Part shown: one piece after another, positions 216-41,929 of the stretch
Position numbering within the stretch: the stretch's first letter is position 1
Layout: each line of letters begins with the position of its first letter
Assembly: GCA_030141605.1 (NCBI GenBank)
Contig: JAQGDQ010000066.1
Coordinates: forward strand, 62,001 to 126,000
Direction: 5' to 3'
Origin: Tubiluchus corallicola
Lineage: Eukaryota; Priapulida; Priapulimorpha; Priapulimorphida; Tubiluchidae
DNA length: 64,000 nucleotides
Notes under the pieces: generated by a model
What the model was told of the DNA's origin: nothing
Database searches by the model: none
Seen by the model: the letters and a program-made list of their open reading frames with translations, nothing else
Made by a program: the position numbers and the translations under genes

Positions 216-264
216 TTGCATTTGAATCAGCAACTTTCAGTTTATAAATATTAGACCACTAGAC

Positions 265-3553: not shown

Positions 3554-6500
3554 CCACAGAAAGCACACGCAGCTGAGCTGTTGAATACATATTCCCATAC
3601 TGATTAGATGCCTCACACTGATACATTCCGCCATCCTTCTCTCTCACTTGATAGATGGTTAAAGTCTCTAATGACTGTGTGACTTGCTCCAACACAATTC
3701 GAGCCGAATCCTCACTCGGTATGGAAGCAGAAGTGAGTAAACTGCCATCATAAAACCATTTGAGCTCAGCCTTAGGCAAACCGTAAGCTTCGCAAGCAAA
3801 CACAGCCTTAACACCAATGTCAACATGCTGATCTTGGAGTTCTATAGTGAATACTGGAGCACCTATGACCATGAAAAGAAATAAAAATGCAAGAACAGCC
3901 ATACATAATTTTCAAAAAAACTTTCCAATGAACCCTGCTTTGTCAGCCAGAAAATTACGGACAAATCGGGATTTACATTTTCCGATTTTTTTTTATTCGT
4001 AATTGTTCCCAAGAATTTGCTAGTCTTTACCTGTACAACAAAAAATGTAGTAAAAAGTAAGGGATTTAAAACAAACAACATCACTTTTTACAGAGTTTGA
4101 GTTCAAATTTATGTATTGCACAATTGACAAAACTACAAATTTTAATTCATGCATTTGCAGCCTGCATGATTAAATAATTGCTGAATCCAAGTAAAAAGTG
4201 TTTGTGATGAGTTCTAGACATCAGCCTCAGTTAGAATGCATCACTGTCGTAGTGGACACAGTCAAAGTTCAACTAATTTCGATGTCGCATTGCCCGATTA
4301 ATTACGTTAATACACCTAAATTTAGTTGCTTATATTTCAAAACTTTAAGCCTATGGATTGCTTTAATCAGCATTATCAGGCTCATTCAAATAACGAGTCA
4401 CAAAAGTCTTGTCACGAATAGTAATCAGAGCTGTTATGGACACAAAAGAAAAACGATCACAGCTGATGCAGCTACATGCTACAAGAAGGGGTGCAAGCTG
4501 TCCATTCAGAGATTCCTGTTATTGTTTATAGTAATTATATAATATTAATACATGTTATTAAATTATTAATAATAATGACTATTATAGCTTATATAAGATT
4601 TAAGTCCCAAAAATCGACTTAAAAGCTTTTTTAACAAATTAAATACAAATGTAAATTATTTTTCATATAAAAAATTAACAAGACATACGCAATGCAGTAA
4701 AGACTTATCAGACAGTCTTCTTCTAAGCTTAGAGATAAAGCATCTAATACAAAGAAGCAATTCTGGAATCACTTTCGCAAAGCTATCACTAAGTTAACTA
4801 CATTATTTTTACGATCACTAAACTGATAATACCGAAATCGCTAGCTTAGTGATTGCTACGTAAAACCTTTGTTTTAAGGACCTGAAATTTGAAAGACTTA
4901 CATTTTTATTTTCAAGTTCCTTTGATAAAAGCTACTGATACTGATTAGGGCAACTTGTATAGCATTATCTAATATAAACTGAATGGCTCATCTCAGAAAA
5001 AAATTTAAATCAAACAGTAAATACCTAATTGCACTGAACATAACTATGAATAAGTTGGCAAAGAAGATCATGTAAAAATTGACTCACACGCCACGGCTAA
5101 ATTTACATTCTTGGTTGTTGCTCCCAAAGAATTTGAGGCTTCACAGGAATATTCGCCCATATCGTGAAGTTTCACATTTGGAATAATCAGCACGCGGTTG
5201 AAATCAGCTCTGTAGGCTTTCATTGGAACTGTCGCCCCACTACGTTCTATTTTGTAAGTAGGGTAAGGACTAAAATAATACAAAGTAAAGTTTTAGGAGG
5301 ATGTACTGTGGATTTACGTAGCCTTAGGTCTTGTTCGAAAAAGATGTTATATCTGTAAGCTTGAATTCAATGAGAAAAAATTAAAAATCAGGCTCTGTAG
5401 ATTGACATAAAATTCATTCTAGCGTTCCATTGCAAATTGGCAGAGCTTTTCGAAAATAATCGCTGCCATCTTAAATTCAAAATGGCAGATCAAGTCTGAC
5501 TAGAAATTATTCTAATATATTCCACTAAAGCTTCTTGATCATTCATCACAACTTAGCACAACCTTAGGTTTTTTTTTCAAAACTAATGAGATCATCGTCG
5601 CCTTGAATTTAAAAAGGCAAAAAGAAAATGTGATTCATCATCGACGCAGAATTCGTGCTAGTATGTTCCTGTAAAGTTTCATAATGACCCACTGCAGAAG
5701 AATCAGGCTTTTTTCAAAAACGATGCTATCGCCACAATCTTGAACTCAAAATGGCTGATCAAAAATCTGGCTTGTCAATTTATGCAGAATTCATTCTAGT
5801 ATCCCAAAGGGTTTCCATAACGATCCTCTGCAAAAAGGCATAGTCGTAGGCCTTTTTTTTAAATGATGCTATCGCGGCCATCTTCAGTTCAAAATAGTAC
5901 ATCGAAAAGCCGACTATGTCAGTCGATGCAAATATCACTCTAGTATAATTTTGCGAGGTTTCATGGCGATCCATTGCAAATTCAATGAGCCTTCTGAAAA
6001 GTTTTTTCAAAAAATCATCCCCCAACAACAGCAACAATAACAACATCCAGATAAGTAGAAAGTCTGTCTACCAAAAATCGTTGCAGAATTGACAAAATCT
6101 GCTGGTTAGTGGAAGATTTAACATCACTTCAAGAAATTATTTTGCACCTAATAAAAGGTTCATGTATAAACCTTCCCATTAACAGATTTGCATATTAAAA
6201 ATGTAGGGGCCTACTTTTGACCTTTGTATTCAGTGTGGCTGTTTTCAGCACGTTCAGCATGATTTTTGCTGGAAAAAAGAATGCATGTTACATGGCAAAA
6301 AGTACGGTAGTAATAATCACTGTTTATGATAAGTCACGAGACACACAGAAACACAAAGATTGGCAAAAAGCATAAAATTACATAAAAGCATAAAGCAACA
6401 CTCACTGAGCTTGTGCTACACATTCTATCGCTACATCATCGCCTACCACGGGACTGACAGGAAAGATCTTAGGGAAACCATGTACAATTTCGGGTGCTCT

Positions 6501-16046: not shown

Positions 16047-17574
16047 TGCTGTAAAAATGCAAAAAATGTAAAACTTCGTCATAATGAAATTAAATGGCTA
16101 TTTCAACACTGCTAATCATTAACTCCATACAGATGTATACCAGAATAGGCAATACCAGCACTATCTTCTACTCACACCAAAATTTCTGACTCTATCGATT
16201 TATAAAATGCATCCATACATTAGAATGGATTACTTGCTACAATATACTGGATGAAATAGCAGGATTTCATTGTTTGTCAACATGTAGTAGTTTTTATAAA
16301 TTAGAAAGCAAAATTTTGTGCCTTGACGGTAGCAGGTTTCATAAAAAGAAATTTAGTCTACAAGCATAGACCCTAATTCAATAAAATGTGTATGACACAT
16401 AACAGTAACACAATAGTTATGGTAATAGATTTTACACAGTACAGACTAGTCAAAAATAATTCAACATCAATATATTAAAATACAGGCATGCACCTACATT
16501 GTGGTAGGAGCTGCATCGGAGCTGTGAAATGATTATTTATCTCATACTTTTGAAGGCTAGACTACTGAGATATAAAATCACCATGCTGAGTACCCGATAT
16601 AGGCAGCAATAGTGATGTGGGAGATCTTCACATTTGCTGGAAAAAGTCACGAACCGTTTAACGTGCATTGCCAGCGCGACAGTCAACTCGAAGAATGTTT
16701 ACAGCTTCTGTTTACTAATCTCAACGTCTAAAAAATTTTTCAGAAATTAATGGTTCACTGTTACGCAATACGCAATATAAGCCACTGCAGAAAAACCAAT
16801 TATATTATTATTTGAAGTGTCACAGTGAGTCACATACAAAGACTTATTAAATACTCCACTTGATTTAGAATTAGATGATGTGAATACTTGGTAGCAGATC
16901 GGGGAACATGGCATCAAATTATGATTGGTGCTATGTTGCATAACGGAAGCACCTAAGCCCTAAGGTGATGATGACCGACGAGTGGAAGTTCTTGTCCAAT
17001 AAAGGTTGCTACCTTTCTGAAATAACTGTATGTGTATCTCGAATCATTCTCACTTAGCAATTTTCCAATTACACTAGCCTCACTTGTCAATCCCATTACC
17101 CTAAAAAAAGGAAAATACACAAATGTCCATGTAGTTTCCTCAAAAGGGCTAACAAACACGCCAAATAGACTTTCAAAAGATAGTTCGACAAGAAGGTTTG
17201 CACTTTGTCACAGAACTGTGTCAAGAAACTAGTAACATATGATCCAGCCCTACTTGAATAGACGAAAAAGATGGCTAAAAATTTAACTTTGCTAAATTAA
17301 AATGAGTCATAAACATATCCATTCCAGCTTTATCCTATACTGCAAGTCATACAAGAACCTACGGCGGAACTTTGTTATAAAATGAATTGACTTCGCATAA
17401 ATACTGGCTCAAATATACAACGAAATTAATTAACTCGTTGCTCATTCTGCAAGCGAGGCTTCGTCATGTGCTTGGGCCTGCCTGCAAATAAGCAATAACC
17501 GAAATCAGTAAAATTGTCTTAAACTGATGACAACCGTCTGAAGAAATTTCTAGCACCTGGCGACCCAGTTATAC

Positions 17575-18330
17575 GAGTCTTTGATTCCGGATCCGAACCG
17601 AGGTCCGATACTAGGACTGAGCATCAAACTTTCGAACCTAAAATTATAGATTCGAATAATTCAGTGCTTAAACCACATACATTGTTTTTCATTAAAACAT
17701 TTTAACGTTTACAATTAGCACGTTTTGGCTGCGATATCTGTGCATAATTTTTAACCATAGTAGTAGGGCAGAGCATCTGTACCAGCAAGCGAATTGGAAT
17801 CGAATTTGTGACTTTCGAATTCGAATGGAACCAAATTTCAGTATTTTGGATTCGAATCGAATTCAAACTCTGTCTGAAGGATTTTCGAACCACCAGTAAG
17901 CACTGGTCTTATTGTAACGCGGCTAGGGGTTCACGTACCAGAAAGATGTGCAGATGATGGTATTTTGCACCAATGGCTTGGGTTCATCTGACTGTTAAGC
18001 CTAAGGCACACTTCGGCACAAATTAGTTCTTGAAGTTAATAGCAGAAAAATTGACATTGGAGAAATGTTGACTTTGATAGACAATTTTGCAACATTGAAT
18101 TATTTATTTAATTGCTTTATCTCTTCCTGGGATAACAGAGCTTCTTAGCAACTCTTCTGTTAATTTGAATTCAAAATACTGAAATTCACTTCGATTCGAA
18201 TTCGAAAACCACAAATTCGGTTCAATGATGATTATTGATTTTTTTTGAAAACTGATACCGATTTCCTCAAAACTGATACCAATTAATCAATCATTGATTA
18301 TTGTTTAGATCAGCTATCAATGCAAATTAT
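17575..18330. repeat. TTCGAATTCGAA-rich region, possible decayed hAT element
   Basis: TTCGAA or GATTCGAAT words cluster at 17585-17660, 17760-17890 and 18170-18225. Non-autonomous hAT elements often carry long runs of TTCGGTTTCGAA-like words inside their ends. The putative ends (near 17610 and 18225) match only loosely and I found no 8-bp target duplication. Confidence 0.3.
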
Positions 18331-21945: not shown

Positions 21946-21951
21946 TTTATT
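21946..21951 (-). terminator. candidate polyadenylation signal of contactin copy A
   Basis: AATAAA on the minus strand, 46 bases past the stop codon at 21997-21999. It would give a very short 3' UTR. Other AATAAA words occur further on in this AT-rich DNA, so this is only the first candidate. Confidence 0.35.
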
Positions 21952-21996
21952 CCACTTAGAATAGCAGAGCTGGCCACATTTTAAGGAGTGATTATA

Positions 21997-22100
21997 TTAC
22001 AGTTGGTTCCACCGAAGAAATGCAAAAAGTATGGCTATTACGATGAGTGAGATTGAACAAGTACAGTGATTTCCTGCTGCTAAATAGTAATTGAGATTGC
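21997..22100 (-). other. contactin copy A: last exon with GPI-anchor signal
   Basis: After the last fibronectin domain come GNLNYYLAAGNHCTCS, then a hydrophobic run ISLIVIAILFAFL, then RWNQL and stop. Small residues (AAGN) are a likely cleavage site. The hydrophobic stretch of 13-14 residues is too short for a normal membrane span and there is almost no cytosolic tail, so lipid anchoring is favoured. The short exon was placed by acceptor and phase (G + GC making glycine). Confidence 0.8.
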
Positions 22101-25100
22101 CTAAAAATAAAAAAAAAGAATGCTAACACAGTTTAAACATACAAGAGAAGGATAAGCAGGAATTAAACAATTTTTATTGCATTTCACAAAAACATCAAAT
22201 TTGTCAAGTATTTAATAAAATTATACATGAGAGTATATATTTTCCAACTATATACAGCTAAACCTAACTTAATATCAAAAGTATAGCAAACAATTATAGA
22301 AAACAAAGTACATCTCAGGCAAAGAAAATAATTATAATGAAAGAGAGGTGTGGATCTCAGCAGCAAAGAGATGTAGCCACTCGCATAAATTATTATTATT
22401 AATTACAAACTGGTGGCTAATGGTAGTATGTCGAACCGAAAACATCAGACAAAATACTCACCCAGTTGGAAAAGTTCTGCAGCACTCTGCCGACCGTCTC
22501 CTCCGTTACTAAATCCAAGCACTCGCAGTCTATAGCCCACTCCACCTTCTAAGTCATGTATGATGTAACTGTTCGCTGGTCCAACAAAATAATCCAGGTA
22601 TTTTGTTGGATCAACTTCATGAGCTTTCAGTATACGGATCTAGGAGAAGTCAAGGATAAGTTTCTACGCCAATTTGATAACATTATACAGTAACTCCAAA
22701 AGTTTATTTGATTTAATTTTTTACTGAGTGGCTTTTGTAGGTTAGCAGAATGCATAACTATTTAAACCTATTGCTACACAATGCAGCCTTAAGGCCAACG
22801 TATTTGATTTCTAAATGTAAAAAGACAGACGATTGCTCTGCATAGAAACAATTTTTTGCATTATGCACTCCAATCTTTATATTTTACTAGATACGGTTAC
22901 AAATAGTGTTACAAATATAAGCGGCTGTATGCTAGGAGTGCTAATCATAATACTACTGTGACTGAACTTACCTTATAACCAATGAGTGCTTCCTCATCTG
23001 ATGCAGTAGTGATGCCATTCCATGTTATCCTTATGCTCCTTCCGTATTTCAGTGGTGCCACATGGACGTCGGTTGGAGCTTGTTGTGGAGCTGTGAAAGT
23101 AAGCAACCTTATAAAAACAATGCTCTTTACATGATTAAGAAACGACAAAAAAGAAAGAAAGCTATAACAACGTGTTATTTTCTGCATTACGTTTATTATT
23201 AACAGTTTACTCAGTAATGAAAAACTGTTACCAAAAATTAAATGGATACCTTTTTTGAAAGTGTAGGTCTCAACTGCTCGACTTTTTTCACCATTGCCAG
23301 CTGAATTGTATGCCATTACGCGAACATTATACCAAGTGTCTGGCTCAAGACCTATTACTATGGCTTCGCTATTTGCACCTGGACGAATAGCAATTATAGC
23401 GTCTCTTTCATCGACGCCCTTCTTCCAATATTCCACCTAAAACGTGTTCATGATGGGTAAAATAGGCGCAGCATGGATTAATCCACAGACGTAGAAGAAA
23501 TAACTAGTGTATTTGTTTTGCCATGTATTTATGTGGAAGTTTGCTGGAGCTAAGAGGAAGTCTAACCTAAGTCTGAGAGGGACATGATGGAGTTGTGCAA
23601 TTCAAAATATGTGTGCGCTTGTCTACACAGATGTGCAGCTTAGCCATTTGTCAAAAAATTAACTACAGATGTGCAGCTTAGCCATATGTCAAAAAATTAA
23701 CTATGTAAATTTTGTGTTTTTAACTTTATGAAGTAAGAGCTTTCGCCTTGTTCTTTTTTTCTGCTATGAAAACTAATTGTGTAAAACGGCAAACAAAGAT
23801 GCTTACTCTGACTCCATGTAAACGACCCCTCATCGTTTCTCTGGTATCAGAAAGAGGTGTCCAGTATACTTGGACGGCTGTGGAGTTGTAAGGTATACCC
23901 TGAACATCTATAGGTGTCACTACTGGTGCTATAGAATTAAGTACAAAACAGCATGATATTCACGTAACAAGAAATTAGCTTTAAGTTATATAACACTCAT
24001 TTGTCAATTAGCTGACTTGATATGTAGACGATAAAATGGGTGTTAATTGCTTAATAAATAAGATGAATGATTCATGAAGAGCGCATAACAGGCAAGTTTC
24101 ACATACGAACACGATTATTTCTGAATTTTTCTCCAGCAACATACACTTGCAAGCAATTCACACTTACTATTTTCTGCTGATAGTATAACAGACACATTAC
24201 TCTCTGGTCCATCGCCTTCGTCATTGAAAGCTTGAACTTTTACTTCATAAGGTAGATAGAAATTTTCTTCTCCAACTCTGAAAATTTAAAAAGAATTAAC
24301 AAAAATTTCATATTTTTTAGAGATTATTTTCTAGATCATAGCCTACAATTAAACTGTGTTTTTATTACTTTGAACACCTAATTTAAAACTATATTTAACA
24401 TAAACACAGTAACTCACATAAGACATCAGAAAACTAAAACTACAAACTAGAATAAAAATGACACAAGGTGAAAACTCTTAACCAAAAAGTAACAAGAGAA
24501 TGTAGTAAAATTGCAACAAACACCTGAACAGTTTAAGGATGCTTAATTATAAAGACTTCTTAGAAATAAAGATTACATATGTGATGCAATTATAATATAA
24601 TGCACAGAAAAGGAAAGAAGAGCGAAAAACTGATACTATTACAAACCTATGTGTATACTGGCCTCTCTGTTCCTTAAACTCTCGTTTTTCAAAGTCAGAC
24701 TGAGAGCCCAACTTGCGCCAAAATATCCGATAGCCGACACCCGGCGCATTCCATAAATCCTTTGTCAAAGGCTACAAAATGTAAATGTATGCAATTAGTG
24801 CTAAATTAGTGCTGGATAGAGAATATGACAGGGCACAAATGATTACAAGAATATCTCAGTTAAGGTTATTTCACCTCAATCTTCCCTTGTACAGCAAGTT
24901 TCCTTGAAGAGATAATTCTCAACGTGGTAGAATGGAAAAACACCAACAAGAGGGTATACCTGCCACGTTATATGAAGATCGCCAATTTTTCCACCTCCAC
25001 CACTGACATTGAAAGGAGCCACATCAGGCTTTGCTTTCTTCGTAAAGAAAGATGCTGACGGTACAGAAGGAGGACTTTCCCCTAGGAGATTTGTTGCTTT

Positions 25101-28100
25101 TACACGCACTTGGTATGTGTTCCATGGTGAGAGATTTTCAATGGTGGTTGTTACAATATCAGTGTCAGTTCGCCGTGCTGAAAAAACATAGAAAATTAAA
25201 AAATAAAAAAGATCTTGATATGGATCATGTGGTAAATGTTGCTTGTAATGAAGCCGACCAACTTATCTTGAACTTTTCTTTATTCAATCCAAGGTACGTC
25301 AGAACCTGTCTACCATTATTATTGTCAGAGAATATAATAACAAAGTGCAGATACAGAAATCAATATAATTGTTCATCGCATCTATTACAGTGATGCAGTC
25401 CTGTTACCGGAAATCAAAGCACCTTGATACGTGTGATGAAACCATTAAATAAAAATGTAAATTCCAGTCTACAGGTTGTTTAAGGCCTAACCTGTTTATC
25501 TGTTTAGATATTCTCCACGCTAGCAGTTAGCGCAAAAAATCTACATGAACTAAAATGAATGCATTCTAATGTGTCTGTGCTTCAGTAGACAAAATTTCAA
25601 AGGCACACAACTAAACGTTCTGCTGTTTACTTTTGTTTGAGCTACTTGCCTTAGCTATCTAGAAATAAACTGCCAACAAGCATATGAATTTATTTACATG
25701 TAAGAGTCATGGGACATAAATGCATTTTAAATTAAGGGAAAAACCAAATAACACAAATTCTGCCAATGGCCTCAAAAATCCAGACAGATTTATTTGCATA
25801 AGGATCGCAAAACACTAAAACAGGTACGGTTTTACATAAATCAAAATTCTACAAAGCAGTCTGCAAAAACACAGCAAGAATTAGAAAAAAACATATTTGA
25901 CAAAATCATATACATATTGGCAGGAGTCGTGTACAACTTGCAAGTACATAATAAAAACGCACCATATTCACATATGCATATAGAGAACATCTAACAAAGC
26001 ATACCCACCACTAATTGCACAGCTAGTATATTACTAACAACACAAAAGAATGACACTAACCTTCATCACGTACAGACATGATTTTGACCGGGTACCAATC
26101 TCTGGTGTAATTATCATGTGCCTCTATGATATATGAAAGAATCTTGTGACCATGGTTGCCACCAATGCTCCACTGTATAGTGCAAGTTCGCTGTTCCACT
26201 GACCTTGCTATGACTCCACTAGGGGCAGCGGGAGGACCTGCAATAAACCAGCCATTGTTTCACATTAAAAACACAAATGCAAGATCCAAAAAACTGGATA
26301 TCAACCACCATGTATGCATAGTAATTCAATATAACAAAATACTCGACTTGATTAAGTTAACTACCGTTTTCTGATGCAGTTTTAAAATGGCAAAAGTAGT
26401 TGAGAGCGCTTGTTTACGTAGACACCTTCTGCGACCTTTAAACTTTTTATACAGATTTAAATGATGGCTTCATAAAAACAACAGTAAACAGTCCCTTTTT
26501 ATGAAAATATTGGAAAATATTACTTAGATCCAAACATATCATGCATGTAATTACCTTGTCACAAAATCTATGCTAAATTGTGCAGTCAAGTTCTTTTTTC
26601 TATTTATGTAAGTGCATCAATGGGACTATACTACCAAATAACCAAAAATGATCAAAATGCCAGTAAGTAAAACACAATGAAATGTGACTGAACAATGAAC
26701 ACTTACTGGATTTATAAAGCTCCGTGCATATAATTTGTTTTTTTGTACACTTTAGTGCACTCCAAGCCAAAATACCACATTAAATGGCAGGGCGACTTTT
26801 ATAGCATGACTGAAGCCTGGCTCATTATGAAGGATAACTCTCTACATTGAGCCACTGAACTGACAGGGGTATACATGTATATATATGAAGTAAACACTCA
26901 GAATCTGTATTGGGAGTAAAACTACCCTAAGCAAGTATACCTCGCAGTCAGGCAGTCATAAGCCATTCGAGGTAACCAATAGCCATATACTATTTAAAAA
27001 AATAGTATATAAGGTAAGAAGGTGCTTAATTTGTTTAAGTAGTTAACTGTGGATGGTTATGCAACTTACCCTCAACAACTAATCTGGCACTTTCAGAAAT
27101 TTCATCTACAGTAGTTTTCACGAGACAAGTGTATTCTCCAGCTTGACTAAATGTGGTATTTCTAATTAGTAGGTAACCCGGGCGATTATAGATTCTCTGC
27201 AAATAAGACAATTATGAATTAACAGACCTGTAGAGAAGGAAGCATGCAGTAAAAGCACAACTAGATATTTGTACACAAGGTTAAGGGAATTGAACTACTT
27301 GCACATTAAAAGAAGGCCAGTTAGGGTACAGAGATAAACTTCCTTTTACTAATAAGTCCCAGTTATTTGCAGCTTTGGTCACAATACTGAAATTATTAAA
27401 ATCAGCTTTGTGGCAGGGGTACATATGGTCATGAATGCTAGATTAAGGAGGACTTTTCAATTTCCTGCCAGTTCTAGACGAAACGTGCAAAGTAGTTCAA
27501 TTCCCTAACTTTCTTTACAAACACCTAACTATACTTTTAACAATGAATTACTGTTTGTAAAAAAAAGGATTGCAGTCACCTAAAATACTTTTCACAAAAA
27601 CTGTGTGTACAACCTCAAGAATTGTTTCTCCTCTTATGTTTGTTAACTTTATTACAAAAGTGACAGTAGAAAAATAGTTTGAATCACTTCAAAATTCCAA
27701 GTTTGAATTACTTCAAAATTTGACAAACATACTATTCGAGAATGCCATTTCAAAATTTATAGCACTAACAAAAAAGTGTAATAAATGTCCAGAAATTTAG
27801 AAATTAACAGATGCCACAAATAAACTAAAATTTTACAATTCTGATTTAACATAAATGTAAATATAAATGTCACATGAAGCCTGATGATAAAGATGGCTAA
27901 TAACTTACAATATGATGTACACAGAAGCAGCAGTAACATACAGTGCCTTACAATGTAAATATTTGCATGAAGCTTGCCTGCAGCTATAGCAAAGGCAGCA
28001 ATCTTCAAGTAAAAATTATGTAGAGAAATTACAAAGTAATGCAAAATACATGAAAACGATTTTAATGAAAACGTTCTAAATTTTGTTCTTATGTAGTTAT

Positions 28101-31100
28101 TTTTTAGCATTGATTTGCTGTTTTTTTATAATAAAAACTACTAATTTTTAATTGTAAATACTTTTTCTGAAATTTAAATCAAACCCCAAGATAACACAAA
28201 ACTCTAGCAAAATTTCCTAGATCTTCCAGCAATGAGAAAGTAGTGAAAAATAAGGGCAACTAAAGAAAATCACACGTACACTAACTTTAAACAAGTAAAA
28301 ACTGCACACTGAACAAAGCTCAGTACTATAAAAGTATGCGATACTTTCAAAAGTGAGACTGGTAAAAGTTAGCCATGATATTAAAAAAGTCAATGGTTGA
28401 ATTCTACCGTAAAATAACAGTAGAGCAGTAATCGCAATGATTTGAAGCGGCTGTTGACTCACGATAGCTAACAGTACGAAACTTACTCAAAACATTGAAA
28501 AATGGGACTGTATCCAATAAAACACCTTCTTTATGTTACATTACATGCTAATATGACAATGCATGTCTGAAACAGCATTGTGAGCAATATGGCAGGAGCA
28601 CAGAACTCAAGAAAAAATACACCGGCAACAACATATCATTTGCCACTTTCACAAGAGATAAGTATCTAAAAGGAAAGAAATCTTCCACAATTCTTTACAA
28701 GAAAAAGGATTTATATTTAAGCAGGAGAAAATAATCGAGTGTTGCAGTACACAGATGCAAGATGTGACAGATTCCGCAAAGAAAATTTGTAGTAGCATGA
28801 ATTTCAAAGATGCTTAGGCACACGTAGCTGCTCCACAGTTAAGTCTTGCTCTGAAAACTTGGCAGGTAAGCTATTAACAAAAATTTATACCCAACCAACA
28901 CCATCGGGGTTGAACTTATGTTTCTTAAACGGCATACTGATTTCCTGTTCAAAAAAGAACACACCTGCTGAAGTCTACAGGCAGCTAAACCTTACAAATA
29001 CAAAAATTTCATCTTGTTGTTTGCAATCTGCATTACAAGCTATTAAAAAATAATTACTTCTTAAATCTGAAAATATAACAAAAAATAAAGAACGAAAATG
29101 GAAAGTCTACATCAAATTTCACAAACTAACCTTTTATAGTAAGTTTTTCCATCAAACTAATGAACCTTTACTACTCAGACTGATACAATATTCTAACAAA
29201 CAGGCACAAAATGAAAAATACCGTTTCATAATGAAGGCTGTGTTCTAGGTCAAGATTAGCGCCATTATGTAGCCAAACATAAGCAAGATCGAGCAATCTG
29301 TCTACAGATGCTTCACACTCAAAGACGTGATTTGTTCCCACTCTCACCCTAGCATGATCAGGAGCCCGGCTAATGGTTGCACTAGCTATAATGTAAATAA
29401 TACAATAAATACATTAATTAATATAATAAGTAAGAATGATTATAAATGACAGCTAAAACAATTTATAATCATATTACCAGCCCTGAAAACATTCAAAGGA
29501 CAGTAACAGCTGGATATGAGCTTTAAGGTCTATCATATTACAGAAATTTACTGAATGAGAAATACATTTTGCTTACACAGATTTAGTTTCTTTACAAGTT
29601 TAAGTTCAATGCTCCTAAAGTTACTAGCAACACAAATAAATGGCATCAGGGAGAGTCTTAAAAATCTGGAAAGGTGTTGGTGATCCCTTATAAGCGAGTA
29701 CCTTATACCCAAGGTTGACTGTATAATACAAAAAATTAAGCTAAAAATTTGTTAATAAATGTCAAGAGCAAATGAATTAAACATGATATCTAAAAAAATC
29801 ATTAAACTGTTATACTTACGTAATACATTGACATTGGTCATGCTGCTTGCACTTCCTAATGAGTTAGTTGCAATGCATTCGTATGTCCCTGCGTCTCCCA
29901 AACGAACATCATTCGTAATCATGGTACCATCGGCAAGTATTCGCCGACGACCATCCGTGCCGATGTTACGACCATTCAGTTTCCACTGATACTCCGGATT
30001 CGGTGCAGCTTCAGGGTTGCATTTTATCGTGAAGTTCCCTTTCACAGCAGCAAACATACTTTCTGGCAAAGGCTTTTTATCAAAGGTTGGCGGAAAGGCT
30101 AAATAAATGTAATTAAAGAAAATTTAATGTAGTAAATGAATGCAAAATGCAAAGTTTCTTATAATCAACGTACTAGACAAAGTACTGCTGAAGTATGTAG
30201 ACTGCACAATAATTGTGATCTTTCTAATTGTGAAACATGAATGCACAAGCGACAACTGGAGCTGAATGTGCCATATTAACAAACGCAATATCTATAACTA
30301 CAAAATAACAATAAAAACTTTCAGTTTTATTTCTTTAAACTGCGAAGATAAGTTTAGAGAAAGAAAATCAGCAATTTATCAATAAGGAAAGTTGAGTAAA
30401 AATTGGGAAAGTTGAGTGAAAATTGACGTATGTGTTAAATTAAAATAATATGACTAAGCAATGACTCTAATCTTTAAAGCTAGTTGTCAACTTACCCAGA
30501 ACACGTAATTGTGCAGTTGAATACACAGTATGATGAATGTTTGTCGCCTGACATTGATACATTCCGCTATCACCAGGTTGGGCTTGATTTATAGTAAGTG
30601 TTCGCAACGACTGTGTGGGCTGCTCAAAAATAAACCTGGCAACATCTTCCGCTGGTAGTGATGTAGGACTGAGCAGAACACCATCCCGAAACCAATTATA
30701 AAGAACATCAGGCTTGCCATATGCTTCGCAAGTAAGCACAACAGTCTCGCCTACGTCTACGTGTAGGTCCTCTAGAGGGGCAGTGAAAACAGGAGCAGCT
30801 ATAAAAGAACAAATATTAAGTTTGCATGATTCCAAAATATATAAAAATATCTAATATGAATAAATTTTTTGTACACCTGCGACTTTTCGAATCACTATAA
30901 GCTCCTTTCCTTCCCTTCTGATAAAAATATCATACGAGAGGGGACCTTAATTCATTATCATCAAACATTTCAATAATGTTTTGAAAACATGGAAAAACAT
31001 GATTATTTAAGCTTGTGCCAATTCTTATTTCAAAGTGCCTAAGCATTACATAGGGGTAATGTTTCAGCTGCATTTACTATTAATCAAGTACGTATGGTAA

Positions 31101-34100
31101 TTGTTATGGTTAATAAACTAAAAAAATAATTAATTTTGTAGTTGCAAAGAAAATAACCAAAGAGTAGTCACTAAAAATCAATTACTGTTAATTAACCAAT
31201 ATTATTGCATTTAACAATTTAACAGTATATTTTATTTTATATGTTTATGAAAAACATATAATAACAAAAAAACATTGTAATATTTTAGTATATAGTAAAT
31301 ACATATTTCAGTGTTTCAGCATATAATACCTACATGAGATAGCGAGGTAGACACGCTCTTCCTTTTTGCCAATAGAATTAGCAGCCTCACAAATGTACAC
31401 GCCTTCATCATTGGGTTGAACATTAGGAATAACCAGCACGCGCTCGTAGTTTTCTTTGAAATGCTTTTTTGGCAAGGGCCCGCCAAGTCGGGTCCAATTG
31501 TAACGAGGATAGGGGCTGGAAAAACAAATCATGATCACGTAAAGTAATTTATTGGCCTTATAGGAGCCATATTACACAAAATTTCAACTTTTAAGGTTTA
31601 TCAGTAACTGGTACTTTGACAGACAGAAACACACCTAAGCAAATTGGCAAAATGCAGATCTTTTAGATATTTGTTAGGCAAACAGCCAACAAAATACCAT
31701 AAACTTTTAAAAAACTCTTTTGTTTAATGTGAATTTTGTCGGTATATTCATATCTTGCAACTTCTGTAGAAAAAATGAAAATAATTTTGTTGTACATTCT
31801 CAATTTACACATTATAAAAAAATGGCTGTTAAAATTTGACAGGCCACAATGCTGTAACAATAAGAGTTTATAAGAAGAGCTTTAATATCTTTTATCATTA
31901 TCCATACATAATAGATTTTTACTACACACAGCTAAATATAAATACAATATACAAGATCCTATATCAAAAAGCTTCATTAAATACATAAATAAAGATAAAT
32001 CTAACTGACATATACATGGGTAAGGATTTACGAATGCCAAATCTATTAATTAATGTTTTGTGATACGAAATCCGAAAGTAAGACAGTTGTGATTTTTAAT
32101 GGATCACAAAATTGATAAATAATAAAAATGACAAAGTGTTCCCACGTGTTAATCTACAGAGATGCCCTGAAAACATGAAACAAAATACTCACTCTGCTTG
32201 AGCTACACATTCTATATAGACGTCTTCACCAGCTAAAGGAGCAGCAGGAAATATTGTTGGAAAACCAACCTCTATTTGTGGAACTCTTTCAGTTGCAGCA
32301 TCTGTTATTCAAAAGAAGAAACGTTATATTGCTGTAAGATATTGAAGTCAGTTATTTTTGCTTTGCGATTTGTTTATGCAAAAACTGATGAAATAACATC
32401 ATCAATGTTAGATAATGCTAAGAATAGATGCAATAGAATCATGTAAAGTGCATTTTTATTAGGTCTCTAATGATACATCCATGCATTGATGCATTGTGAT
32501 ACCTTTTGTAACGATATGGGAATGGTTAAGATGCACATGGTTGATATTTTAAATCAAAAAGTATTGAAATGTTTGCATTTCCGGAGACTTACAATGCAAA
32601 TAATACAAGAGTATAAACAGAAGTCAAACAGTTTGCTGAATTATTTTTTCACTTTACAATTTTAAAATTGTTTGATAAATTTAATATATATATATATATA
32701 TCTCAACAGTTTAATCTAGTTATTTTTATTAAAGCCTGCATATGTTACATATCACATACATGTCTGCTACCTGCCAAACACAGCTAATGGGGACAATATT
32801 AGCTTCTAAACTTTGCATTTAAAATGAAGTTTGCCCTTTATATTAACTTAACTAAATAACAATTTTACATTGTCCAGAAAACTCACAGAGCTGAATGTGA
32901 AGAACCAGCACAGTTTGATAATTACATTTAAGTAACTGTTCATAAAAGAATCAAATGCCAATGATTTTATAAGTGCTTTAGCCATTTTTTTTAAAATTTA
33001 TTATCGAATGTGCCTTTGCAAAAACAAATGAAAGTAACTTTGCTAAAGAAGTAAACTATAGGCAAATGTTAAAATTCAAATGCAAATACTTTATCATTTA
33101 CTAATTAACAATGTAAAGATTTTTGACCTAATATAACTCAGTCATTATTTGACCACATTATTGTCAAGATACAGCAGCACACTTTCACAAAATCTGATGT
33201 AAAATATCATTTAATAAATTTATAATCTTAAAGTACTCACTGTTAGTCCTGACTTCCAGTTTGATTTCACGACTCGTCTTTCCTACACTATTAACACCAC
33301 TTGCAGCCACAGTGCTCTGAACCAAGCATATGTAGTTAGCTTCATCTGCCTCAACGACCTTGCTGAAGTACAGGTTGCCCTTTCGCGATGCAAAAATGCG
33401 AGGTGTTGGTGGTACATACTCGGGCAGCGCATTCTTAAACCAGTAGTAATTAACAGCTAAAAAACATTCGGGTACTCAGATATATTATACCACACAGAAT
33501 GACACATATTTTTTCTTTCAGTCACTTTTGAGGTGGTGTAAGTATTTAAAAGTACTAAAAGAATATGAAAGCAGAAAAGCACAAAGGAAAAACAGAAAAG
33601 ACAAGTGTCAGTGAACCAGTTAAACAGAGGTTTTGGAATAGAATAGATGAAAAATAATCAATTGATATACAAATACAAAGCTCACCCACAGATGGTTCAC
33701 GAAAAGTAGTTTTATCAGTAATAATTATAGCAGTTTTATTACAATGAAATCCCGTTCCTACAAAGTTAAACAAATATTATGACCTGTGATCCTAACCTTT
33801 AATCTTATAAGATTGAGAAGGCTCTTCCTCTACTGATGGATGACATACATGTGAAAGATGAAAGCTCTGAGTCAATTATCTGAGATTAAACTGCGCTGAC
33901 AAGCTTTTCTCAAGTATTGGATCACGTGACACTGACCATTGACCTTGGGACCCCAAAATCAACAAGAGGTTCTTCCTCTATTGAAGGAAGACATATATGT
34001 GAAAGGTATAAGCTTTCGGTCAAATTTGTTCACAAGGCCAATAATACAATTACAGACAGACGGGTGGACAGATGCACGAACGCACGCTTTACTTACAGCC

Positions 34101-37100
34101 TCTTCACTTTACTTACAGAGAGGGGATAATAACTACAATACCTGGAAAATAATCTGGAGCTCGGCACTCGATGACGGCTCCCATGTGCAGGTAACCCAAA
34201 ACTGGCTGCCTCTCATCTGCCGTGAAGTCATTCAAAACTAAAAAACAAGAACATTCATCAAAAATGAAAATAAATCTTTAAACAGGTGAAGAGTATGATA
34301 TGTCTAGATCTTCTAATTTCTCAAAATTTAAAGATCACTTCACATGTAATATCAAAAAAGGAGCAAAACTTTGCTTTGAAACTTTTATGAGGTAAATGAA
34401 AGCAGCAGGATCAGAAAATAATTTTCGTGATATTCTTCATTAAGACAGCAAAACAGCAATTTTGAAAACATTCACTGAAAGTTCTTTCAGTTCATTTCTG
34501 TATAGATCATTAAGAAAGCAAAAAGTTTGCTATAAAGATGAAATTTTGAAGTACATGCGTCTGTACATGCACAGCAAAGGAAAATTGCATAAGATACAGG
34601 ACCTGCTACAGAATTACAAAATATCTTACATCCAAAATTCAGTTCAACAGTTGCACTAATGATGGAACCGTAGAGATTGGTTGCTATGCAATAGTAACGC
34701 CCACGATCAGTATCCCGGTCGGGATGGTGAATAGTCAGTTTACCTGCACAAAAAATTAAATTGTAATTAAAAGAGACAAGATTATTTTACAAATTTGTTA
34801 TAAAAATTGATTTAGCTAGTCTGCTTGCCACGACAGCAACATGTCTGTCCTTGTCTAAATTTTAACAACAGAGTGAGCTTTAAAAAGCTTAAAAACAGCA
34901 ATAACCGAGCACAGACATTTATAAAGCCAATGCATAGGCCTAGTAAAAGTCAACTTCATTGATTTCAAATGGCAACACAATTACTATGTCTTTGTCACTT
35001 GACTTTCTATTTCGAAAAAGGATGAAAATTAACTTTCTATCTACAAGTTTGAGTTTTTCAAATTAAAGCTAACTTTAAATCATCATCATTATAATCATCA
35101 TCATCATCATCATTGACACTGTTGTCTTGAATCATCATCATCAATCATCATTATCATCATCATCATCATTGTCATCACATTCATCAACATCAACATCACT
35201 ACAACAAAAAGCTGGCATACCATTAGTTAATGTAAAACGAGTGTCTTGCAATATTTTAATTTCAATGTTGTCCTTGAACCACCGATACTCGGGATACGGA
35301 AAACCACCGGCAATGCAAGTTAAAGTGACAAACTTCTCAACTGACTCCAAATCATACGTTGTTTCTTTTGGCTGTTCTATAAAGTATGGCCCTCGAGGAA
35401 TTTTTTCAGGATCCTTCTCTGGCGATCCGTAATCTAGAAAATGGTGTGAGTACTATATAATTTATGTTTCGACTAAAACTTGTGCAGCTAAAACAAAAAT
35501 ATTCTCTGTGAAATTCGTATGCAAACCTGCAAACCAGCAGGTACGAGAACTAAATAGTACTGACAATAATTAACAAATTGCACCAAAGTCATTAAACAAA
35601 AGGTTTTCAATTCTAAGTGACTTTCTTACCCCAGCTTCTAATGATGAAATCAGCCTCGTCTAAGTCATTCTTGCTAATTTCGCAAATGTAAGGTCTGACA
35701 TATGCACCATCACTTGGATCCCAGCCCCATTCACCATTACGTAACTTGTAAATCAAATTTTCGCCAATAGGTCTACAAAAACATAAACATGAAATTCAAG
35801 CTTTCATGCAGTCTCAAAATACATAAAAAAACAGAGAGTAGTTAAACAAACAGTCCAAGTAATCAGGTGCACATACATAGGCTCATAAACTAGTCAAAAG
35901 AATTATTAGAATAAACTATTAGAAAAATAGTGGTTTACAAATGAGATCAAATACAGAATTAATTAAATACAGTTTAAATAATACAGAAAATTGTTAGCAT
36001 TTATTGTTTAGACATTTGAACAAAAAACCTTATTTGAAAAACGTAAAACATATAAAAGATTCGAAAGCTTTAGTAGTCTAACACATTATGTGTAAACATA
36101 CCAATCAGCTTGTACATGAAATTAATATCAAAATTTCAGATTTGACTGCTAATAATGTATTGCTCGAGTAACAAATTATAGGTTGTTTTATCAGTCCCCG
36201 ACTAATTTTTTTTGCACCTAACTCTTACTTAGTAAATAAGTATTTTTCGAGTCTACAATTTAAAATTCGCAACATTTTCTTCTGCTAATATCCTGGCGAC
36301 AGAGCAGCGGTGTAAAATTGTTGCATGGAATTGTAATTTCCATTTTAACTTTTAAAACTTGTAATAACTTTTGAAACGTCCAACGTAATAAAGATTACAA
36401 GTAGTTAAATCAATAAAAAAGATAATTTCACCAGTTGCCCAATTCAATAAAAAACTTATACTACACTATACTACACTTATACTTCAATACATAATATATT
36501 ACTCTCTTATACCAACATACCTGTACTGTATTTCATGTTCCTCATAACGAAGCCAACCATCTTTGAAAGAAAATGGCACTTGTTGGAGACCAACTTGTTC
36601 TCCTGTTCCAAGACCTTTTCCTATGATATTTACGCCCCATCGCCATTCCAAATCAAGACCCAAAGATTTTCCTCCTGTATACCTAGCATAATGGAAAACT
36701 AATAGTAAGTCTCCCATATTTTAGAACACACTTCTAAAATTAGTTAGCTACTTAATTTATCAATACACCCAAATGTACTAAAGAAATTTACAAACATCTG
36801 TTTATAAAGCATAAAATTAATTTATACTGCCGCTGTACGGAAATTTTCAGGAGTTGTGGTAGCTATTTATTCAATTGAAAATTATGACTTAACTGGTGGA
36901 CTTCATGACCTTTTAAAACGCAGCACCGCTAAAACTAATTCAAACTTCTTCAGCTTACCTAATATTCACTTGACATTTTTTTGTTCACATTTATTTTATT
37001 GTAAAAATTTATTATACTTTAGACAGAATTTGACAATGCCATATTTTTCTTCAGTCAATGAATGGCATCATTGATGGAAGAATTGGTGTTCAAAATGGAA

Positions 37101-40100
37101 GCGTCCAAATGTAAAACGATCGTGACTTTAAAATGATTTTACGAATATCGCATTTTTACCTCCTAAAATTTTTCGCAAACACTAAAATAAGCTTAACTTC
37201 TCAGAAGGCTTGCCATTCTTTTAAAGAAAAACATGATGAGCAGTATTTTCAGGCATTAGGTGTCACAAAATCAGGCATTAGGTATCAGTTAGTCTAAATT
37301 AGAGCCTTTTTTATTGAAAAAGGGAAGTGAGTTTGAACACAAAGTAATTCGACATTTAAACTTTAGTTATACACAACTGTGATTATGTAGTTGTACATGC
37401 ACTGTTCTCCACAAGACTGGCAATGACAAAAACCTTCGTGACATGCATCTAATAATTCAATGTTATACGCTTACCGCATATCACATAAAAACTGTATAAT
37501 TTTACTTGCAAATACAGCATACATTTAAAAAAATCTATTTAACAAGCTTGACAAGTATTCAAATAATGCCAGTCCTAATTATGCCATTTCACGAAATTAA
37601 ATATATTAATTATGCTAGTTTTATAAGCATTGTGACTATTTATGATGCCAGAGGGCTATAAATGAAAGACCGAGCGACACAAATGCTCTTGATGCTTAAA
37701 AACCCAGGAATGTTAACATTATTATTATTGTTATTATTACCATTTAATTTAAAATGGATAAATTTATTTATGACACATTCTTTGTTTGTAATAAGTAGTG
37801 GTTTTAGAATGCCTAATTTTTCTTTGCAACTTTCTTTTCAGTAAAGTTCTTCTGTTGATAATGACGATAGGTCATTTGTAAGTAAGTATCTTTGCAAAAA
37901 ACAATATGACACAATGTAACAAAATTATTATTATTATTATTAGTACATTCGAGATATGGTGTGAAATTGATTAGCGAAATACTGGCAAAGAACTAAAAGT
38001 TATCAAGGTCAAAACCACCCTGACCTATTGTTAACAATGACCGGTCGTTAATGGCTTTAGCACCAACTCATTAATGGCTGACAACAGGTGGTTAATAGTC
38101 AATAAAATTTTGTCATTCTCATTTATGATTTCCACTGTTTAAATAAGGTCTGCATTCTGACAGTTACTGTGCAGAAAATGCTCTTTTTATCAGTTAAAAT
38201 TACGATTAACACAGTAATTATGTAATACCATTGTTTATTTTGGGGATCGTGATTAAGTAACCAGTTAACGATAAACTCGTGTTCCAACTTGGTCTCTACA
38301 GCCAATAAGTAGCCTCCATAGCTTATACATGTGTCCTGTGCCTGTGTAAAATCCAGTGGCGGAGCCTGTGAGAAGCGATAGCAGGTGAAACCTTGTTTCC
38401 ATTCTACCCATCCTGGTGGACAATCTGCAAGAACAAAACACATGCATGTGAGAAAGAGTCAAATTACAAAATACTATAGAATTTGACTTCCGAATAGACA
38501 AAATGCATGTGTGGCACTACTGTTATATGGTGAAATATATTGCTCTAAACTTAATTGTTTAGACCCATTATATTGCATTAGAGGCTGATCTATAGTTGGC
38601 AGCATTACACACCACATTGTTTGTCAAAATACAAGAAAGATAGGGATAATTCATACTTATAAGTGGGGCAGCACTAACCAAGTGTTTGTGAAAACACAAG
38701 AAAGATAGGGATAATTCAAGTGGGGCAGCACTAACCAAGCTTTGGTGCAGCTTTTAAGCTATGTTTTGCATAGTAAATTGATTATTTGAGGTATACCTTA
38801 ATAAGTTACTTCACTAAGTGCACTCCAGCAAATGAAAATGTTAACAAGGTTGAATGGCTGATATATAATTTGTGTAAATTACCTGTATGAAACCAGTCAT
38901 TATGACGTGTAAATTTGTGATGCCAGATAATGACAGTTGAGGGATATTGCAATAAGAAACCTACCTATAGTCTAAGCAGAAACCCATGAGTACTGGGAGT
39001 TCCTATTTCTGCGTAAAATTCTTATTTATGCTGATTTGAAATTTCAAAAGCATTTTTACAACTAATTAGTCAAATGTTGGGTTTCTCACTTGCGATGTAA
39101 CACTTACAAACAGATCTTTTTCAGCATGAAACTGTTTCGTTTTTGTTCTTATTCTCTCTGTTCATGTAAATTAATACAAAACTCTGCCATTTATTGAATA
39201 TGCAGAGACAAAAAATGCATATTCTAAATTTTCATGACAGTTTGGATTCATGACAACTGTAAACACGTATCAGTTAACAGTTAGCTTATTAGCATCATTT
39301 TGTAAGAAGTAAGCAAAAAGTATGTAGAATGCTGGAGCATTATTATCATCATTTCAGAAGCAGAAAGCTAAGATTATGTACAATGTTAATGCATTATTGA
39401 CCATCAGTGACAGTGTTTGTCATTTCACGCAGTCTTAACATTGTGCAAAATGTTTTTGCTGTTGTTGTTGTTTATGATGTGGTTGGAGTTGTGCTGTGTT
39501 GGTGATTTGGTGTCTTTTGTTTAATACTGAGAGTCACATCACAAATAGAGCAGTATTGCAAATAAATTGTTAAATGACTTAAAGAAAATAGTAGAAAGCA
39601 TCATAAAAAACATAGAATGTTGCCCTCGTATTCCGAATAACCATACATATATGGTAATTTTCAAAGGAAAAAGGAGTGCAGGCCTACATGGCCTTAATTT
39701 GGCCACTACCCTTATTTTTCATGTTGATTTAATGCATACCCATATGTTTAATTGAACTCTACACGTTTTGCAGTTTAGCACATATGCTTTTCATCTATTG
39801 AAAAATCACATTTTTAGGTTGGATTCAATAATGAATCCAACCTACTTTTAATAAATAACGATCACATGTATATCGAATATTATTCTATTTAAAAATTTGC
39901 TCATTGACTAAATCTGTGTGATTGATAATGTGTAATGTACAATTCAATTTAATTCAATTCAATCGTTTCTTTTACACGAGGTAACAACATACAATATTTA
40001 TATGAGAATAATACTGCTATGATAGTTGAGACAGGGTGGCGAAAGACCAAGAGGTCACCTAGCAGCCACCCCTACTTATGCAACATTAATTAGTATGGCT

Positions 40101-41929
40101 AATTATCTGACACTAGTTGCAACTTTGTGCGAAACTTATTTAATTTGAGGAAAATAGTGCATCGAAATCACAAAATAAAAATAATAGTAATAATAACCAT
40201 GCGTCAAAATAGCAAAAACATATTGTGTCAATAATCAATAAAGGTTGCAGTAACATATGTGATACACTGGAAAAAAATTAATTACTTACGTTATAAAATC
40301 ACATGCAGATTATAATCAAACAAAGTATTTGGTTGTATTATTTTGAACACTGTTGAAAAAAAATACTCATGGAAATAGCCAAATATAAAGTAATAATAAT
40401 ATTAATAATAACCATGCATCAAAATGCATATTGTGTCAAAAACTGATAGCAGTGAAATACATTAGGAAAAAATTAATCACATGTAAATACAGTGGACTCT
40501 CGTTATAAGAATCACCTCGGGAGAAGGCAAAGTGATTCTTATAACAAGCGATTCTTATAACGAGCATGACACAGAATTGCTTTAAAAAAATTTTATGCAC
40601 ATAAAAATTATTTATTTCCCGAAATTACGCTAGAAATGACATGAAACAGCATAATGTTTTTCTGGCCTAAAAAGGACCTAAAAATTACTAGACTAATATT
40701 TTCATTTCATGGTTGGGTAAATATTTCATGATGACAGAATTGCCTTAAAATTTTTTTAATGCACATAATTTTTTTCTCCACGCCCACTGCGCAGAACCAT
40801 GTGAGAGACAATGGAGTTGGCGCCAAAATTGATTCTACTATCGAAAGAAGGGTGATTCTTATACGAGCGGATTTTCACTAGGAAAATGCCGATTCAATTC
40901 GGGAAACGCGATTTTGATTCTTATATCGAGCTGATTCTTATACGTGTGATTCTTGTAACGAGAGTCCACTGTAAAATCACATGCAAAAATTAATGAAAAT
41001 TTGTACAGACTTAATTTGATACTTAGTAGCGTCTAATATTAATTGCAACTCCATAATATTATTCCAAACAATACATTTGTTAATGAAACTCAAAACTGGC
41101 AGCCTATGCTTTCTTCTGCCCTATACCATTATTTTTTGGCTTACATTTCTACCCTATATTACTATTCCGCCTATAGTGTTTTGTTTGGAATGCGAAAGTG
41201 CTAAAGTGTGTACAGCCGAGAAAGTCAAGCAACACATACAGTCAAGAGCATGAGTGCATAGCTTGGGAGTTAGAGCAGTTAGTTTTGAAAAAGGACGGTC
41301 TGGTAACTCTGTTTATAGAGCAGCTAGCAAGCTGAAATATGGAACAAGAATGCTGTTTCATGGTAGTACTTTATATCTCAAAAACGATGCAAATTCGAAC
41401 TGAAAAAACCAAGTAAGCGAGTAACCTAATACTTTGCACTCTGGACTAATTTTGATGGACGTGACGTTTCATCTAAAAGTAACTTTAAAACAGCAGTGCT
41501 CTACAATTCAATTAAGGAATTTGTTTTCGCACTATTTCACGCTAAGAATAAATGTACAAGTTGCATTAGAAATTTGGTTAGACGATGTATATGCATTTTC
41601 AATGAAGAAAAGCTAAGCAAGCTTGTTCTGCACTTGCAAGCAGAGCAATTATAAATCCACAGGGTTTGTAATGTTGCTGCATGTACTTCATCTAGTTCGT
41701 TTAGTACGAATTGAGTTGTAGGTGTCATATTTTTAACAAAATTCTGGCAACAAATTAAAACTGCGTCATGTGTATCTTGCCTGACTGGAAGATGTGTGAA
41801 AATGTTTAGCAATTCTTAGTTAGTCAGTTACTTACCTTTTTCATTTACAAATTTATCAACTTCATTTCGATAAACAGACAGCACACAAAATGGCAAAACA
41901 AAAAATATAGACAGTCCAAAAAGCAGCAT
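21997..41929 (-). CDS. Cont: contactin, copy A: complete lectin-Ig-FNIII GPI-anchored adhesion protein
   Basis: Twenty-three coding exons in transcript order: 41929-41836, 38424-38229, 36682-36521, 35772-35630, 35433-35221, 34743-34630, 34237-34142, 33456-33241, 32301-32193, 31515-31334, 30798-30496, 30098-29820, 29385-29222, 27196-27070, 26237-26061, 25177-24960, 24771-24647, 24277-24168, 23928-23807, 23436-23250, 23090-22972, 22639-22462, 22100-21997. All joins keep phase; total 3,738 nt, 1,245 residues. Order: signal peptide, C-type lectin domain (32-198), Ig1-Ig6 (199-799), four fibronectin III domains (800-1211), GPI signal. This is the plan of fly Contactin, which has a similar length and acts outside the cell in septate junctions with Neurexin IV and Neuroglian. 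An acceptor ten bases before the ATG shows a further 5' non-coding exon. The largest coding intron (38425-41835) holds a Tigger-like element. The family is certain from domain order; strict orthology to Cont is inferred. Confidence 0.93.
22462..26237 (-). other. contactin copy A: four fibronectin type III domains
   Basis: Each domain is built from two exons or parts of exons. FN1 from 26237 (PPAAPSGVIARS, TIQWSIGG, YQVRVKATN LLGES); FN2 from inside exon 25177-24960 (FNVSGGGG, YRIFWRKLG, YEVKVQAFND EGDGP); FN3 from 23928 (VQVYWTPL, VEYWKKG, YNVRVMAYN SAGNG); FN4 from 23090 (IRITWNGI, YRLRVLGFSN GGDG). The W of strand B and the Y.VRV.A.N of strand F are present in order in all four. Residues about 800-1211. 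Confidence 0.88.
23627..23702. repeat. direct tandem duplication, 38-bp unit x 2
   Basis: ACAGATGTGCAGCTTAGCC with the following TTTGTCAAAAAATTAACT stands at 23627-23664 and again, with one changed base, at 23665-23702. The near identity points to a recent slip or repair event. It lies in the FN3 intron of contactin copy A. Confidence 0.9.
26765..26880 (-). mobile_element. possible tRNA-like SINE fragment
   Basis: On the minus strand, CAGTGGCTCAATGTAGAGAG is a fair A box and AGGCTTCAGTC, about 30 bases on, a weak B box. It lies in the intron between Ig6 and FN1 of contactin copy A. The match is degenerate and chance is possible. Confidence 0.25.
29687..29723. mobile_element. solo terminus of a pogo/Tigger-like DNA transposon
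   Basis: The minus strand reads TACAGTCAACCTTGGGTATA then AGGTACTCGCTTATAAG, the style of pogo/Tigger ends (CAGT...ACTC.CTTATAA). A similar minus-strand start, TACAGTCAGTCCTCACTTAG, lies at about 43010-43030. No partner end was found for either. Confidence 0.35.
33800..34075. repeat. two-unit tandem dispersed repeat with GACAGACGG end
   Basis: CTCTTCCTCTACTGATGG with GACATACATGTGAAAG (from 33821) recurs as GTTCTTCCTCTATTGAAGG with GACATATATGTGAAAG (from 33969), a period of about 147 bp. Between them is GACCTTGGGACCCCAAAATC, and the block ends AATTACAGACAGACGGG. I know this wording from repeats scattered through many marine invertebrate genomes, but the class is not settled. It is in an intron of contactin copy A. 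Confidence 0.5.
35080..35200. repeat. imperfect (ATC)n microsatellite beside an exon
   Basis: Runs of ATC/CAT with breaks over about 120 bases. It begins only about 20 bases past the donor of the first Ig1 exon of contactin copy A (exon end 35221), so on the transcript a (GAT)n tract follows the splice site closely. Confidence 0.9.
35630..38424 (-). other. contactin copy A: C-type lectin domain (three exons)
   Basis: Exons 38424-38229, 36682-36521 and 35772-35630, residues 32-198. Fold marks: DCPPGWVEW, FTCYRFS, DTCISYGGYLLAVETK, FIVNWLLNHDP, FKDGWLRYEEH, GEWGWDP and RPYICEIS. Cysteines fit two bridges (DCP-TCY and DTC-YIC); the usual inner pair is missing. The classical EPN/WND calcium-binding triplets are absent. 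A lectin-like domain at the N-terminus is known from fly Contactin and absent from vertebrate contactins. Confidence 0.88.
38619..38740. repeat. direct tandem duplication, 57-65-bp unit x 2
   Basis: ACAAGAAAGATAGGGATAAT and GTGGGGCAGCACTAACCAAG occur in both 38619-38683 and 38684-38740. The first copy has 8 extra bases (ACTTATAA) inside. It lies in the first coding intron of contactin copy A. Confidence 0.85.
40140..41020. repeat. tandem duplication split by a DNA transposon
   Basis: A unit with AATAATAACCATGCGTCAAAA, CATATTGTGTCAA, GGAAAAAAATTAAT and AAATCACATGC at about 40150-40310 recurs from about 40374. In the second copy the part after ATCACATGTAAATA continues only at 40972 (TAAAATCACATGC), past a 482-bp insert. 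Removing the insert and one TA restores the order of the first copy. Confidence 0.75.
40490..40971. mobile_element. non-autonomous pogo/Tigger-like (Tc1/mariner) element
   Basis: The ends are inverted repeats: CAGTGGACTCTCGTTATAAG on the left and, read inward from the right, CAGTGGACTCTCGTTACAAG. They continue as AATCAC, so 25 of 26 bases match. TA flanks both sides (40488-40489 and 40972-40973), the target duplication of this superfamily. TGATTCTTATA words repeat inside near both ends. At 482 bp and without a transposase frame, it is a MITE. It lies in the first coding intron of contactin copy A. Confidence 0.88.
41836..41929 (-). other. contactin copy A: signal-peptide exon
   Basis: MLLFGLSIFFVLPFCVLSVY makes a strong hydrophobic signal, followed by RNEVDKFVNEK and a GTAAG donor in phase 1. 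The exon has a polypyrimidine tract and CAG acceptor ending at 41940, ten bases before the ATG, so the start lies in the second or a later transcribed exon. Joined to the next exon it reads EKD-CPPGWV, which matches the phase used in copy B. Confidence 0.85.

Follow-up and report, generated by a model that had tools for sequence, protein, structure and literature searches.

The window, a 64,000-nt stretch of the Tubiluchus corallicola genome, was examined together with its surroundings from the first base of the contig (C1707; contig position = window position + 62000) to 40 kb beyond the window, giving a 166-kb region whose open frames were compared among themselves; negative coordinates denote bases left of the window. 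This self-comparison and splice-aware gene models (53 introns in total, the shortest of 159 nt) revealed three contactin copies, all on the minus strand and ordered A-B-C in the direction of transcription. Copy C was detected left of the window through a further set of matching frames, in addition to the exon pairs of A and B; the head-to-tail arrangement of the original prediction is borne out, but its pair of genes is a trio. Signal exons were sought by a scan for a start codon, a hydrophobic stretch and a donor, which predicted one for each copy. The features of the cluster are as follows.

21997..41929, minus strand: copy A, a complete contactin of 23 coding exons and 1,245 aa; its gene model has a signal peptide, a C-type-lectin-like domain, Ig1-6, FNIII1-4 and a GPI-type tail
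41836..41929, minus strand: A exon 1 (94 nt), signal peptide
35630..38424, minus strand: A exons 2-4 (196, 162 and 143 nt), lectin domain, from the gene model and PDB C-type-lectin matches
30496..35433, minus strand: A exons 5-11, Ig1-Ig4
22462..30098, minus strand: A exons 12-22, Ig5-Ig6 and FNIII1-4
21997..22100, minus strand: A exon 23, hydrophobic GPI-type C-terminal tail and stop
16046 to -17341, minus strand: copy B as a whole, a gene model of 22 exons and 1,200 aa
3554..16046, minus strand: B exons 1-11 (signal peptide, lectin, Ig1-Ig4), exon 1 being a scan prediction
1..3553, minus strand: in-window part of B intron 11 (4.4 kb, between exons 11 and 12)
-882 to -17341, minus strand: B exons 12-22, left of the window
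-22710 to -31989, minus strand: copy C, wholly left of the window, 11 exons with a predicted signal exon, lectin and Ig1-4

Copy A aligns with Contactin-2 at 534.5 bits over query residues 181-1136, from Ig1 to FN4, in a co-linear series of six Ig and four FNIII domains. In the Pfam scan, four fn3 and five Ig_3 stretches pass on their own, and the sixth Ig domain is recognised by the co-linear alignment only. The N-terminal C-type-lectin-like domain, the invertebrate form, is indicated by PDB matches to C-type lectins, the best with an E of 2.5e-6 over 55 residues; A exon 2 alone scores 18.3 bits against Pfam Lectin_C, below the cut-off of 22.6, and Lectin_C is absent from the Pfam hits of spliced A at E 0.001. 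At the other end, the hydrophobic terminal exon 23 lies 361 nt downstream of exon 22 and is followed by an AATAAA at 21951, 46 nt beyond the stop. It is one of two candidates on the minus strand of the 166 kb that satisfy thresholds for acceptor, phase and hydrophobicity set near the values of A's own exon.

Copy B matches Contactin-2 at 430.5 bits over query residues 168-1112, which identifies its six Ig and four FNIII domains, and its lectin domain was recognised by alignment with A. Over the lectin exons E2-E4 the two copies share 76 of 152 residues (50%), in agreement with the earlier estimate by eye of about half. The frame of B stays open for 1,200 codons until a TAA in frame closes it at the 3' end of exon 22. 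FNIII-4 ends there, at the point from which A splices on to its putative anchor exon. Neither gene model is interrupted by an internal stop, as had been claimed, and this extends to B exons 12-22, the missing 3' part that the original prediction had set as a test. The leftward extension proposed at the same time, expected to yield Ig5 to the GPI tail, recovered Ig5 to FNIII-4 but reached the TAA instead of an anchor exon.

A scan from -17300 to -22700 (for phases 0 and 2, only to -18600) found no A-like terminal exon after B, whereas A's own exon stands out in such a scan. It listed four phase-1 candidates (-19429 to -20952) and one of phase 2 (-17808), with hydrophobicities of 2.0-2.3 compared to 3.2 for A's exon. 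A further phase-1 candidate directly after exon 22 (-17342) was rejected, as it needs a 38-nt intron, against a minimum of 159 nt among the 53 introns modelled. B exon 22 itself contains a strong phase-1 donor (GTG/GTAAGC, -17303, score 5.0), the phase being that of A. The exon 15/16 junction of B is weak, its in-frame donors scoring -1.2 to -3.1 with a shifted phase (-9017 was used), and the mean donor score of B, 1.66, is somewhat lower than those of A (2.91) and C (2.68). B thus seems not to be a plain second anchored contactin, as it ends after FNIII-4 without a recognisable anchor exon, and its anatomy suggests a secreted protein; it could, however, reach an undetected anchor exon through the donor at -17303, which counts against the secreted reading. 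Intron 11 of B (4.4 kb) holds a reverse-transcriptase-like fragment at 1431-2048 (plus strand), with 28.3 bits against a Pfam cut-off of 29.6.

Copy C has its best match in Contactin-1 (213.1 bits), and its Pfam scan gives Lectin_C at 23.4 bits (cut-off 22.6) and four Ig_3 stretches. Its exon 11 has two possible donors six bases apart: that at -31983 was used for codon and cysteine counts and the codon models, and the stronger one at -31989, which with a score of 7.2 is the best of the donors of C, for the intron comparison and donor scores. A donor of this strength is easier to reconcile with a tail lost recently, or with a 3' exon that escaped detection, than with a truncation of long standing. 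When A exons 2-21 and 10 of the 11 B tail exons were searched against the 30 kb between C and the contig start, no match to an Ig5-FNIII tail appeared. Moreover, a search of the 343.5-Mb genome with the tail of B revealed no third tail set among the best 73 of 159 candidates; it recovered all 11 tail exons of B and 6 of 11 of A (39-53% identity), and a tail of C should be easier to find than that of A, given the closer relationship of C to B. The domain content of C suggests a head-only protein, which may be either a secreted head or the product of a recently truncated gene.

Besides a LINE-like fragment, the 30 kb beyond C contain two LTR retroelements as well as a C-type lectin gene. The two retroelements occupy about -56.6k to -34.2k, with LTR pairs that are 98.8% and 95.3% identical, and the element with the 98.8% pair has frames that appear env-like by eye. 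The lectin gene lies 25 kb past C on the same strand; its C-type-lectin-like exons, one of them partly duplicated (78.8% identity), were located at about -58.0k to -56.7k on the minus strand. A lectin fragment (-56710 to -56865) with 34.5% identity to A exon 2 was considered as a fourth copy and rejected: no Ig exon was seen after it, and the neighbouring exons resemble an ordinary C-type lectin gene, with EPN and WND, which we take to be C-type lectin motifs.

The three copies share one intron plan. All eleven exon lengths first quoted for A (94, 196, 162, 143, 213, 114, 96, 216, 109, 182 and 303 nt) and B (97, 193, 132, 137, 213, 102, 93, 234, 106, 182 and 309 nt) proved exact in the splice-aware models; every difference between them is a multiple of three, and the phases of these exons agree, again as predicted. 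Over all exons, 19 of 22 length differences between A and B are divisible by three; of the 21 introns, 20 agree in phase and 19 of these also in alignment column; the misses are intron 11, which is off by two columns, and intron 15 at the weak exon 15/16 junction. Between A and C, phase and column coincide in all ten introns. The ambiguous splice sites of B and C were picked with the phases of A in view, which builds in part of the phase match; the agreement at 19/21 and 10/10 introns is beyond what this guided choice alone explains. In addition, B keeps 17 of the 18 aligned cysteines of A, and C keeps 12 of 13; the single miss in each lies in the signal peptide, so that all those of the mature protein are kept. 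Amino-acid identity among the copies is 46-57%.

Pairwise codon models (own script, GY94-type, F3x4) gave omega values of 0.113 for A/B (1,181 codons), 0.193 for A/C (596 codons; dS 2.3) and 0.323 for B/C (589 codons; dS 1.0), the dS of 4.2 for A/B being saturated. On a three-branch tree of 586 shared codons, also fitted with our own script, the branch omegas are 0.14 for A, 0.29 for B and 0.39 for C. With uncorrected per-test p values, a fit with omega fixed at 1 is rejected on branch B (p = 0.0018) and on branch C (p = 0.014), equality of B and C is not rejected (p = 0.54), and a single omega for all branches is rejected (p = 0.0004). B and C are under purifying selection that is weaker than that on A. 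The dN/dS near 1 that would have spoken against the original prediction is far from what the A/B comparison and the B branch give, and its old duplication with both copies held by selection is supported by the same values. Neutral simulations from the coding sequences of B and C (300 runs per point) left at most about 5% of runs stop-free once divergence reached ~0.02 substitutions per site for B or ~0.05 for C, far below the branch dS of ~0.54 and ~0.44, respectively. The constraint on C could nevertheless predate its truncation, and its tail may have been lost within the last small interval that the simulation permits.

A tree of Ig1-4 (LG+G4, ultrafast bootstrap), rooted on three solved vertebrate contactins, places B and C as sisters with a support of 100, and the two join A, also with 100, indicating that the line of A split first and B separated from C later. 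The A-B distance in Ig1-4 is 1.08 substitutions per site, compared to 1.27 for CNTN1-CNTN5, a comparison that involves the vertebrate outgroup alone and is not a date. The cluster is an old tandem expansion.

Taken together, these data probably reflect three tandem contactins with a full, anchored A, whose derived copy, after the first duplication, would have duplicated again into B, a secreted ectodomain, and C, a head. The stop at the end of FNIII-4 would release B as a secreted full-length ectodomain, and C, with the lectin domain and the Ig1-Ig4 horseshoe only, would be, or would recently have become, a secreted binding head. In vertebrate relatives Ig1-Ig4 often suffice for trans binding, so that both B and C would be expected to bind partners of contactin; doing so without holding the cell surface, they might tune A or compete with it, although competition is put forward purely as a hypothesis. 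That the cluster forms an adhesion receptor (A) together with its own diffusible regulators, in which secreted B and C compete for contactin partners or carry them, is a doubtful extension of this scheme.

A rather unlikely alternative is that B and C are dying copies, once functional and now losing constraint, which lost anchor and tail by a retroelement-linked rearrangement and make no useful protein today. Their omegas, higher than that of A, would agree with this, as would the single weak junction in B, the intact donor after C exon 11, expected after a recent loss of the tail, and the two neighbours of C, LTR retroelements with 98.8% and 95.3% LTR identity, along with the LINE-like fragment; yet the modelled codons, 1,200 in B and about 600 in C, contain no stop or frameshift, the aligned mature-protein cysteines are kept, and the branch dS values exceed the neutral stop-free limits at the 5% level many times over. 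It is also unlikely that all three proteins are GPI-anchored and have neofunctionalised in specificity, with the anchor exon of B missed and the tail of C in unassembled sequence. The strong phase-1 donor at -17303 and that at C exon 11, together with a contig start 30 kb beyond C, leave room for such exons, but use of the former would remove the last FNIII strand, the scan after B, from -17300 to -22700, revealed no A-like exon, the genome search with the B tail revealed no third tail set among its best candidates, and a C-type lectin gene is located on the same strand 25 kb past C.

Matching phases would also permit exons to be swapped between copies, so that the cluster might be a single compound, Dscam-like locus that generates diversity by joining alternative heads to one common tail. 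We rejected such shared-tail splicing as highly improbable, since each copy has its own predicted start exon, A and B have their own tails, and C is last in transcription order with no tail found in the 30 kb downstream to splice to. An assembly artefact or haplotype duplication is conceivable in an assembly of 2,344 contigs, which may contain uncollapsed alleles; it is refuted almost beyond doubt by the divergence between the copies, since alleles are never as divergent as 46-57% amino-acid identity and a B/C dS of ~1.0.

Septate junctions and neural contacts have contactin as a core component, and protostomes are usually regarded as having one gene for it; the fly protein has a lectin-Ig-FNIII plan. 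Passages of PMC3195077 describe contactin as a septate-junction protein that acts together with Neurexin IV and Neuroglian, and Drosophila Contactin as GPI-linked, and part of PMC10341621 classes the latter as a CTL-X lectin in insects. Copy A has the lectin-Ig-FNIII plan, with a putative GPI signal, in common with Drosophila Contactin; it would keep the full lectin-Ig6-FNIII4-GPI architecture and is most likely the working, putatively anchored contactin of the Neurexin IV/Neuroglian adhesion complex. Whereas the fly has a single contactin gene, three lie in tandem here, and in two of these no anchor could be recognised. Vertebrate CNTN1-6 share the Ig6-FNIII4 plan, and A, B and C all match solved contactins best; however, the GPI-anchored vertebrate proteins lack a lectin domain and are dispersed paralogues, in contrast to the lectin-bearing tandem genes described here. 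Known soluble contactins derive from the anchored gene, whereas here a separate gene copy apparently ends before any anchor. They arise by cleavage or secretion according to PMC3899608 and PMC6851800, as for CNTN2 and oligodendrocyte contactin complexes, and their ectodomain is free of the membrane, as that of B would be.

Literature searches of open-licence papers found neither tandem contactin genes reported for an invertebrate nor a description of an anchorless or head-only layout; by these searches, the family is already known and the anchorless and head-only layout is a newly described variant. The trio clearly illustrates how tandem duplications can follow one another in steps while the intron plan is conserved. 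If the derived copies lose the anchor, or all below the head, under constraint, they would offer a natural test of which contactin domains function off the membrane, and of whether genetically encoded soluble contactins evolved in invertebrates.

No further contactin was found by self-comparison on the 62 kb upstream of A, which harbour other genes. One complete 5S rRNA gene (92.1 bits) lies at 44744-44861 (plus strand), between copy A and a single open frame of 525 aa at 49763-51340 (plus strand) with the RRM set RRM_5, RRM_8 and RRM_10, presumably a polypyrimidine-tract-binding protein. The gene for this protein is normally intron-rich, and the frame is perhaps an intact retrocopy. An exon matching urocanase lies at 59886-60242 (plus strand).

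Outside C1707, the genome search with A as query gave matches of at most 31% identity among the best 38 of 244 candidates, with no third tail set and no further contactin copy; the search with C as query recovered all 10 C exons in the query and likewise no further copy among the best candidates. Two kinds of match outside C1707 came from the searches with the B tail and with C: hits of low identity in long Ig genes that consist of a single exon, and short stretches of Ig similarity, at most 45% identical, of which those at 40% or more had an E of 8e-6 or weaker. Elsewhere in the genome lies a very long single-exon, sidekick-like Ig/FNIII gene with a frame of 2,131 aa (L020:294-6686, minus strand), whose best PDB match is sidekick-1. 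Two others, at L021:1728-7493 (plus strand) and L022:2-5716 (minus strand, cut by the fetched stretch), are very long single-exon Ig/FNIII genes, which from their sequence look like LAR-type receptor tyrosine phosphatases; this genome may contain many giant genes as intronless copies. At G000:C1924:131877-292084 (plus strand), several dozen separate FNIII exons lie on one strand over 160 kb, representing either one giant gene or a tandem array.
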